From Robiginitomaculum sp. (lineage in GTDB: Bacteria > Pseudomonadota > Alphaproteobacteria > Caulobacterales > Maricaulaceae): a stretch of DNA of 35,263 bases. The notes under the pieces are model-generated. The model had not been told where the DNA came from and made no database searches. It was given only the letters and a program-made list of their open reading frames with translations. Positions 6,208 to 8,495 of this stretch are shown here, one piece after another. How positions within the stretch are numbered: position 1 is the stretch's first letter; each line of letters opens with the position of its first letter. The stretch spans positions 1 through 35,263 of the forward strand of contig JAESUG010000005.1 of the NCBI GenBank assembly GCA_016763185.1, written 5' to 3'. The translations under genes and the position numbers were made by a program.

Positions 6208-6412
6208 AGTTCGGGGTCCAGCTTCTTGGGAAATTTCTCACAATGCGCAAAGAGCTGGACCCCCCGAACAAGTCGTGGGGTGACAGGTGGTGGGGGTCGT
6301 GGGGTGACAGTGGGTAATCGTCGTGGGGTGAAAGTGGGTAGTAGTCGAAGAGCGACGATGTGCCTTGTCACTAAGACAACCATGATGTGCCTTGCACCAA
6401 GGCAACCACATA
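6208..6412. repeat. Intergenic inverted repeat plus degenerate tandem copies
   Basis: TTCGGGGTCCAGCTTCTT (from 6210) is complementary, with a 2-nt gap, to AAGAGCTGGACCCCCCGAA (ending about 6267). It is followed by three degenerate GTCGTGGGGTGAcAGtGGGT units and a doubled gatgtgccttg unit. Confidence 0.65.
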
Positions 6413-6442: not shown

Positions 6443-6471
6443 TTGACAGCTTCACCTTAGCTAGATACATA
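6443..6471 (+). promoter_or_regulatory. Candidate sigma70-type promoter upstream of ffh
   Basis: TTGACA (6443-6448), 17-nt spacer, TACATA (6466-6471). The -35 is perfect and the -10 is weak. Confidence 0.4.
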
Positions 6472-6482
6472 CCGCCCCTTAT

Positions 6483-6590
6483 CCACAGCGTCAGATGACG
6501 CCTCTGGCTGTACAACTTGGGTTATCTCAAGGGGAGACAGGCGGAGCCCCCACTCGGCAATGGTTTGCTCAGTGGGGTTCTTTTGCTGTG
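6483..6590 (+). ncRNA. Candidate structured ffh leader or small RNA (three hairpins, the last terminator-like)
   Basis: H1 CCA-ca-GCGTC-agat-GACGC-ctc-TGG (6483-6507). H2 CTTGGG-ttat-CTCAAG (6516-6531). H3 CCCCACT-c-GGCAA-tggt-TTGCT-c-AGTGGGG (6548-6577), followed by TTCTTTTGCTG. Confidence 0.45.
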
Positions 6591-6609
6591 TTTGGTTTTG
6601 GGTGGTTTG

Positions 6610-8070
6610 ATGTTTGATACTTTAACCGATGAGTTAGGCGGCATTTTTGACCGATTGACCGGTCGTGGCGCACTGTCGGAAAAAGATGTCAAAGCAACAC
6701 TGCGCGAAGTACGGGTTGCCTTGCTGGACGCGGATGTAGCCCTGTCCGTGGTCAAACAATTTATCACCTCGGTTGAGGCCGAAGCCATTGGCGACAAGGT
6801 GTTGCGTTCGGTAACACCGGGTCAGCAAATGATCAAAATTGTCCATGACGCTTTGGTTGAAATGCTGGGCGGCAACGAAGAAACCGCGCCCCCTCTAAAC
6901 CTAGCCGCCACACCACCGGTTGCGATTATGATGGCGGGCCTACAAGGTTCCGGTAAAACCACCACAGCCGCCAAGATCGCACTTCGTTTGCGCACCAAAG
7001 ACAATAAAAAAGTATTATTGGCCTCATTGGACACCCGTCGTCCGGCGGCGATGGAGCAATTGGCGCAATTGGCTGGATTGGCTGAAGTTGAGTGCTTGCC
7101 GATTGTTGGCGGTCAATTGCCGGTGCAGATCGCGGCTCGTGCCATCAAGCAAGCCAAACTTGGCGGCTTTGACGTCGTGATTTTGGATACTGCGGGCCGG
7201 ACCTCAATCGACGACGAACTGATGACCGAAGCAGCGGCGATTGCCAATATTGCCAAGCCTACCGAAATTTTGTTGGTGGCCGATGCACTAACCGGACAAG
7301 ACGCGGTGGAAACTGCCCAGCGTTTTCACGACCGTTTGGCCTTAACCGGTTTGGTGCTGACCCGTTTGGACGGCGATGGGCGTGGTGGTGCGGCTTTGTC
7401 GATGCGGGCCGTAACCGGGTTGCCGATTAAATTTTTGGGTGTGTCCGAGAAAATTGACGGACTGGACAATTTTGATGCGCGCCGCATAGCAGGTCGTATT
7501 TTGGGTCAAGGCGATGTGGTGTCACTGGTTGAAAAAGCCAGTGAGATGATCGACCAAAAGCAGGCGGACAAATTGGCCGCCAAAATGAAAAAAGGCACGT
7601 TTGATCTCGAAGATTTGGGCAATCAACTGCGCCAAATGCAAAAAATGGGCGGCTTACAAGCGATTATGGGTATGTTGCCGGGCATGGGTAAAATGCAAAA
7701 GCAGCTCGATGGCTCTGGCATGGATGACAGCGTTTTTACCAAACAGTTAGCGATTATTTCGTCCATGACCCCGCTGGAGCGTGAAAAACCTGTATTGCTC
7801 AAAGCCTCGCGCAAAAAACGTATTGCCGCTGGTTCTGGAACCCAAGTACAACAGATCAATCAATTGCTAAAAATGCACAAGCAAATGTCTGGCATGATGA
7901 AAAAAATGGGCAAAGGCGGACGCGGTGGCGACTTTGGCGGCCAAAACCCAGCCATGCCACCTAGCAATATTGATCCCATACAGCTCGAACAAATGAGACA
8001 AAAACTAGGGTCTGGCGGTTTGCCAGGCTTGGGCGGCGGCGGTTTACCCGGCCTGCCCGGAAAGAAATGA
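6610..8070 (+). CDS. ffh: Signal recognition particle protein Ffh (SRP54)
   Basis: MFDTLTDELGGIFDRLTGRGALSE, GLQGSGKTTTAAK, DTAGR, Met-rich M domain (GMLPGMGKMQKQL). Start set to 6610 rather than the ORF-track start 6517. Confidence 0.96.
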   Translation: MFDTLTDELGGIFDRLTGRGALSEKDVKATLREVRVALLDADVALSVVKQFITSVEAEAIGDKVLRSVTPGQQMIKIVHDALVEMLGGNEETAPPLNLAATPPVAIMMAGLQGSGKTTTAAKIALRLRTKDNKKVLLASLDTRRPAAMEQLAQLAGLAEVECLPIVGGQLPVQIAARAIKQAKLGGFDVVILDTAGRTSIDDELMTEAAAIANIAKPTEILLVADALTGQDAVETAQRFHDRLALTGLVLTRLDGDGRGGAALSMRAVTGLPIKFLGVSEKIDGLDNFDARRIAGRILGQGDVVSLVEKASEMIDQKQADKLAAKMKKGTFDLEDLGNQLRQMQKMGGLQAIMGMLPGMGKMQKQLDGSGMDDSVFTKQLAIISSMTPLEREKPVLLKASRKKRIAAGSGTQVQQINQLLKMHKQMSGMMKKMGKGGRGGDFGGQNPAMPPSNIDPIQLEQMRQKLGSGGLPGLGGGGLPGLPGKK

Positions 8071-8114: not shown

Positions 8115-8495
8115 ATGCCAGTAAAAATCAGATTAGCCAGAGGCGGTGCCAAGAAGCGTCCGTATTATCGTATCGTTATTGCCGATGTTCGCGCCCCACG
8201 CGATGGCCGTTATATTGAACAAGTTGGCACTCATAATCCATTATTGCCCAAAGACCATGAGGACCGGGTACGCATCAAAGAAGACCGCATCAAATATTGG
8301 CTTAGCAAAGGCGCACAACCCACCGATCGCGTGGCCAGATTTTTAAGCGTAGCTGGTTTGTACGAGTGGAAGCACGGCAATAACCCGAACAAAGGCAAGC
8401 CGGGCGAGAAAGCTTTGGAGCGGCTTGAAGAGAAAAAAGAAAAGAAGTCGCGAAAAAAGAAGCGGCTGTCGAAGCCAAAGAAGCTGCAAAACTAG
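8115..8495 (+). CDS. rpsP: 30S ribosomal protein S16 (zero-frame product, 126 aa)
   Basis: [44 protein letters not shown]. Sits in ffh-rpsP-rimM-trmD-rplS order. Confidence 0.95.

Follow-up and report, generated by a model that had tools for sequence, protein, structure and literature searches.

The ffh gene of Robiginitomaculum sp. is preceded by an intergenic region carrying a promoter-like pair and several potential hairpins, which raises the question of what RNA is encoded there and to what it might respond. A preliminary description of the sequence had proposed a structured leader with the logic of an attenuator, or else an independent small RNA, and had linked it to synthesis of the SRP protein. 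The region was analysed within a window of 35,263 nucleotides, the term window being used here for the whole stretch of DNA under study.

Promoter region and operon

The features of the locus are listed below in the coordinates of the window.

6443-6448, plus strand: -35 element TTGACA, read directly from the sequence
6466-6471, plus strand: -10 element TACATA, read directly, with a 17-nt spacer from the -35 element
6484-6590, plus strand: whole structured RNA, 107 nt, matched by covariance models R1 (107 bits) and R2 (85 bits), the window sequence being in the training set of both
6484-6489, plus strand: P1 5' strand CACAGC, long-range closing helix, paired in 98% of cells of the genus alignment (14 sequences), with a double change in one pair only
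6488-6501, plus strand: P2 (H1 of the preliminary description), GCGUC-AGAU-GACGC, sharing 6488-6489 with P1
6502-6546, plus strand: P3 arm, CUCUG.CUGU / ACAG.CGGAG, nine pairs changed on both sides in 14 sequences
6548-6577, plus strand: P4 (H3 of the preliminary description), the ffh-motif hairpin, with the C6555·C6570 mismatch and an invariant closing pair C6548-G6577
6585-6590, plus strand: P1 3' strand GCUGUG, from folding and the genus alignment
6610-8070, plus strand: ffh (SRP54), ATG at 6610, Pfam PF00448 with E 1e-65, start conserved in relatives
8115-8495, plus strand: rpsP (S16), Pfam PF00886
8689-9976, plus strand: rimM and trmD, Pfam PF01782 and PF01746
9960-10370, plus strand: rplS (L19), Pfam PF01245

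Direct reading places the TTGACA-N17-TACATA pair exactly where it had first been seen, and transcription is predicted to start near 6478. The pair was not listed by the promoter scan of the window because TACATA fails the -10 rule of that scan. The position of TTGAC is kept across the class: of 184 alphaproteobacterial loci, 152 have the motif 75-220 nt 5' of their counterpart of H3, compared with 21 when the reverse strand is read. The genes 3' of the structured RNA follow in the order ffh, rpsP, rimM, trmD, rplS; with rpsP and rplS among them, the RNA heads an operon containing r-protein genes, as r-protein leaders do. Just 5' of the ffh promoter, a 24-nt unit (GTCGTGGGGTGACAGTGGGT...) is present three times at 6272-6356, and a 16-nt inverted repeat lies at 6213-6228/6248-6263.

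Fold and covariation of the RNA

The three consecutive hairpins proposed earlier were all recovered in place, the C-C mismatch, loops and distances included. H1 has the stem GCGTC/GACGC (6488-6501), with the CCA/TGG pairs outside it, H2 is CUUGGG-UUAU-CUCAAG (6516-6531), and H3 (6548-6577) consists of a 7-bp outer stem, the C6555·C6570 mismatch, a 5-bp inner stem and a UGGU loop, followed by UUCUUUU. What had been missed is that H2 is only the tip of the longer P3 arm, which also holds a conserved internal loop (ACA/GGGGAG), and that P1 closes the whole molecule, so that the RNA at 6484-6590 is a three-arm structure held together by a long-range helix, larger than the published single hairpin. 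Folding of 6480-6590 gave -51.3 kcal/mol, compared with -35.4 +/- 3.8 kcal/mol for dinucleotide shuffles (z -4.2, with none of 200 shuffles as good). A kink-turn in the P3 internal loop was considered and rejected after examination by eye, tandem G·A pairs not being present on both strands.

Conservation and covariation among relatives, on which the case for a structured RNA had been made to depend, were found in both a genus and a class alignment. In the genus alignment, which was made with MAFFT from 14 members and was not fitted to the structure, 93% of the cells of P1, P3 and P4 are paired, 12 pairs carry double changes, and 49 double-changed cells were counted as against 14.9 in shuffles. 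The class alignment A4 contains 530 double-changed cells versus 145 after shuffling, a figure that leans toward the structure to which A4 was fitted; double changes occur in 11 of the 12 pairs of P4 in the structure-fitted class alignment, and both the C·C mismatch and the closing C-G pair are present in all 76 sequences of the covariance-model class alignment. For Rhodobacterales, RNAalifold placed P2 and P3 hairpins 5' of P4 in an alignment made without reference to the structure.

A search for P1 by RNA duplex energies was unselective against shuffles and a position-limited helix test was therefore used instead. At a score of at least 14 this test detected P1 in 81% of Caulobacterales sequences, compared with 32% of shuffles and 54% when the strands were swapped between species; outside Caulobacterales it gave little or no excess over shuffles. 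P1 and P2 exclude each other because both use positions 6488-6489, and the folds of the window sequence with one or the other enforced differ by 0.1 kcal/mol. In general the P1-forced folds were better by 2-14 kcal/mol, and in two Caulobacterales sequences they were worse. Among 28 Caulobacterales sequences, which were chosen for a visible P1 and include near-duplicates, 27 have a best local hairpin that takes in part of the P1 5' strand, and 93% reach a hairpin score of 12 compared with 31% of shuffles. The closing helix and the first hairpin thus share a strand and are mutually exclusive in most Caulobacterales.

Relationship to the ffh motif

According to its published description (Meyer et al., 2009, PMC2704228), the ffh motif is one bulged hairpin whose bulge holds two conserved cytosines and whose first pair is invariably C-G; it occurs in Rhodobacterales, Sphingomonadales and Rhizobiales, is absent from Caulobacterales and Rhodospirillales, and bears no resemblance to the 4.5S site. 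It is held in Rfam as RF01793, classed 'Gene; sRNA', and RF01793 has been listed for M. huakuii (PMC5596092). No function or mechanism for the motif was found in the literature searched.

Rfam searches of the window at the gathering score, and of 701 bases and 73 bases at E<10, returned nothing relevant, RF01793 giving the window copy no score. That copy lies below the Infernal gathering score of RF01793 (35 bits) and was accordingly treated as a diverged variant, connected to RF01793 through intermediates, and not as a member of the model. RF01793 scored above its cut-off in none of 61 Caulobacterales genomes, where four weak matches were at the right place, at 6 of 20 ffh leader loci from various relatives, and in 30 of 142 genomes of the class. 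In other orders, RF01793 and the models built here match the same sites; R1, a covariance model built from the 14 genus sequences, does so in five loci (L053, L095, L058, L039 and L046). A C·C hairpin descriptor, which requires the C·C mismatch by construction, reached a score of at least 24 in 86% of 214 ffh upstream regions and in 5% of shuffles, and this result bridges the window RNA and the RF01793 motif. The RNA at 6484-6590 is very likely a homologue of RF01793, and the sequence comparison identifies H3 with its C·C mismatch as the Caulobacterales form of the ffh motif, an overlooked and diverged variant. The earlier proviso that a match to a characterised family would make the RNA a known one applies in part: it is homologous to RF01793, but it belongs to a lineage from which that family was reported absent and its structure is larger.

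Distribution in Alphaproteobacteria

R2 matches the RNA 5' of ffh in 56 of 56 Caulobacterales loci, including 14 that its training set did not contain, and the reported taxonomic range of the ffh motif therefore appears too narrow. A search of 61 Caulobacterales genomes yielded 39 matches with E < 0.002, one per genome and all adjoining ffh. In 142 genomes of the class the best R2 matches number 81; ffh follows after 4-107 nt in 75 of these, and a further two lie at contig ends beginning with ffh. Four class-wide matches away from ffh (G038:C3, G156:C2, G117:C1 and G099:C2; E 4e-5 to 0.003) are probably due to chance, and no ffh was found near the first two; these two, at G038:C3:48759-48845 (E 4e-5) and G156:C2:231329-231412 (E 1.5e-4), could possibly be second copies. 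In 200 genomes of the phylum, no match outside the class was better than E 0.0017.

The genes that follow ffh vary in some Rhodobacterales, where acetyltransferases or chorismate mutase take the place of rpsP; at L039, L048 and L053, which are of Rhodobacteraceae type, GNAT acetyltransferase genes, chorismate mutase or COQ7 were observed after ffh. In one relative of Robiginitomaculum (G013:C4:29532-30677) the ffh reading frame contains a TAA stop, possibly an assembly error.

A family lacking ffh at the locus

In one alphaproteobacterial family, ffh is missing from the locus and all 14 genomes with a match have the RNA directly before rpsP with divergent dapF upstream, dapF being visible in 13 of them and replaced by a contig end in G389. 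R2, trained without these genomes, matches 12 of the 14, and the ATG of rpsP lies 27-34 nt after the 52-nt RNA match. One genome, G109 (loci L289-L360; 97% complete, 35% GC, no N; 1,351,574 bases, with all 12 contigs read), has an RF01793 match directly before rpsP-rimM-trmD, with dapF divergent upstream, and retains the promoter, P2, P3 and P4 ahead of a Shine-Dalgarno-like sequence and rpsP. A domain search across G109 revealed no SRP54, tblastn detected neither Ffh nor FtsY while SecA, SecY and RpoA were found, and a pattern search of the same genome did not find the SRP RNA core. The whole SRP pathway has apparently been lost in this family, judging by the sequence of G109, the one member searched in full for SRP components. 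The 13 relatives with the RNA (among G387-G402) also lack ffh between it and rpsP. Separately, a match to RF02800 (Rickettsia sRNA47) just above the cut-off was noted in G109 at L304 (5708-6014, minus strand).

That the RNA persists where the locus has lost ffh, and in G109 where no Ffh is detectable, argues against Ffh as the ligand and for either a remaining operon product (S16 or L19) or an independent RNA. The case is that of a single family, which could have kept a leader that once served ffh as well. As a natural deletion experiment, in which the RNA is kept, ffh is gone from its place there and rpsP comes next, it points from Ffh toward a ribosomal protein, and what the RNA senses thereby becomes directly testable.

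Proposed function and alternatives

The homology, structure, promoter position, single copy and location of the RNA, and the exclusion between P1 and P2 in Caulobacterales, were computed here, and the proposal of a structured leader immediately upstream of ffh has held up, the RNA being promoter-proximal, conserved, covarying and distinct from SRP RNA. As a whole, it is explained best, and by a slight preference, as a leader through which an r-protein would control the ffh-rpsP-rimM-trmD-rplS operon in cis; action in cis is probable, and the likelihood that a ribosomal protein is the ligand falls just short of even. In this mechanism, transcription from the TTGACA promoter at 6443 would yield an ffh-rpsP-rimM-trmD-rplS mRNA with positions 6484-6590 as its 5' leader. 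The P2 hairpin would form first during transcription, and on emergence of the P1 3' strand P1 would displace P2 and close the three-arm fold, an order of events that we infer. An operon-encoded protein, most likely S16 or L19, would then bind to P4, the arm with the C·C mismatch, once the fold is closed, and translation of the operon would be repressed, the ligand and the direction of control both being presumed. More tentatively, the ffh motif may be misnamed, being a class-wide two-state leader (P1/P2 exchange) that senses S16 or L19, couples SRP and ribosome synthesis in Alphaproteobacteria, and still governs the rpsP operon alone in the SRP-less family. No sequestration of the Shine-Dalgarno sequence by the fold was found; pairing of CCGCCC (6472-6477) with GGGUGG (6600-6605) was rejected as a candidate because its 5' strand would precede the predicted transcription start. 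Counting against the proposal, genes other than rpsP come after ffh in some Rhodobacterales, and P1 rises little or not at all above shuffles outside Caulobacterales.

An independent or processed sRNA of ~105-120 nt acting in trans, for which the spot before ffh would be a gene location only, is rather unlikely. It would account for the RNA having its own promoter and a compact closed fold, for the variable distance to the start codon (4-107 nt), for its outlasting the loss of ffh and for the Rfam type of RF01793, and a discrete RNA would also fit the array signal of the S. meliloti candidate sm5, ~120 nt between dapF and ffh (PMC2573895), and the distinct RNA-seq peak of the Bartonella 'ffH leader RNA' (PMC7717549). 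However, in nearly all cases the RNA immediately precedes the operon in the same orientation, it is never confidently placed elsewhere, and no conserved terminator follows it.

Regulation by or for the SRP protein is doubtful, since an entire family has lost ffh from the locus and still carries the RNA before rpsP. Ffh does bind RNA, and a feedback in which it attached to the leader when free of 4.5S RNA and repressed its own synthesis would suit the placement of 75 of the 81 best class-wide matches directly 5' of ffh, including loci where genes other than rpsP follow. Nevertheless, the RNA resembles neither the SRP RNA of the same genome nor the 4.5S site, and it persists in the 14 genomes whose locus has lost ffh, one of which, G109, has no detectable Ffh at all, making such feedback improbable.

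The reading of H3 as an intrinsic terminator, with GGGG at 6531-6534 as the competitor in a transcription attenuator, did not survive comparison with relatives and is very improbable. In the window, a strong stem (H3 by itself, -19.5 kcal/mol, z -3.2) is indeed followed by UUCUUUU, but relatives do not conserve this U-run: within the 11 nt that follow H3, at least five consecutive U occur in 23 of 184 relatives and three or fewer in 133. The terminator scan of the window also omits H3, an equivalent of GGGG, and with it the proposed competition with CCCC, is missing in several relatives (L130, L133 and L142), and the segment 3' of H3 is conserved instead as the P1 3' strand. Chance hairpins in a GC-rich intergenic stretch can be dismissed in view of the folding z-score, the compensatory changes, the invariant C·C and C-G, and the class-wide position.

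Comparison with known systems

Signals of transcription from the equivalent position have been reported in other orders, namely S. meliloti sm5, a ~120-nt sigma70 transcript candidate between dapF and ffh (PMC2573895), and the leader RNA-seq peak of Bartonella (PMC7717549), in neither case with a function or full structure. The gene next to the window RNA encodes the partner protein of SRP (4.5S) RNA (RF00169), but the RNA itself is without the GGAA apical domain (domain IV), as the preliminary description had remarked; the true SRP RNA, which is the sole RF00169 match in this genome by covariance search, lies on contig C64 (5323-5420) and not in the ffh leader. With the autogenous r-protein leaders (L19, S15, S2 and similar) the RNA shares a compact multi-helix structure at the head of an r-protein operon and restriction to a class, although it matches no Rfam r-protein leader and its mechanism and ligand are inferred here.

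The closest counterpart is the ffh motif. Like it, the window RNA lies directly 5' of ffh on the same strand, with P4 (6548-6577) ending 32 nt before the ATG at 6610, and shows the bulge cytosines (here C6555·C6570), an outermost C-G pair (C6548-G6577) and a covarying stem. It differs in that the motif was described as one hairpin of 52 positions, which is enlarged here to one of three arms in a closed fold of ~107 nt with alternative helices, and in that the motif, reported as missing from Caulobacterales, now extends to this order, that of the genetic model Caulobacter.
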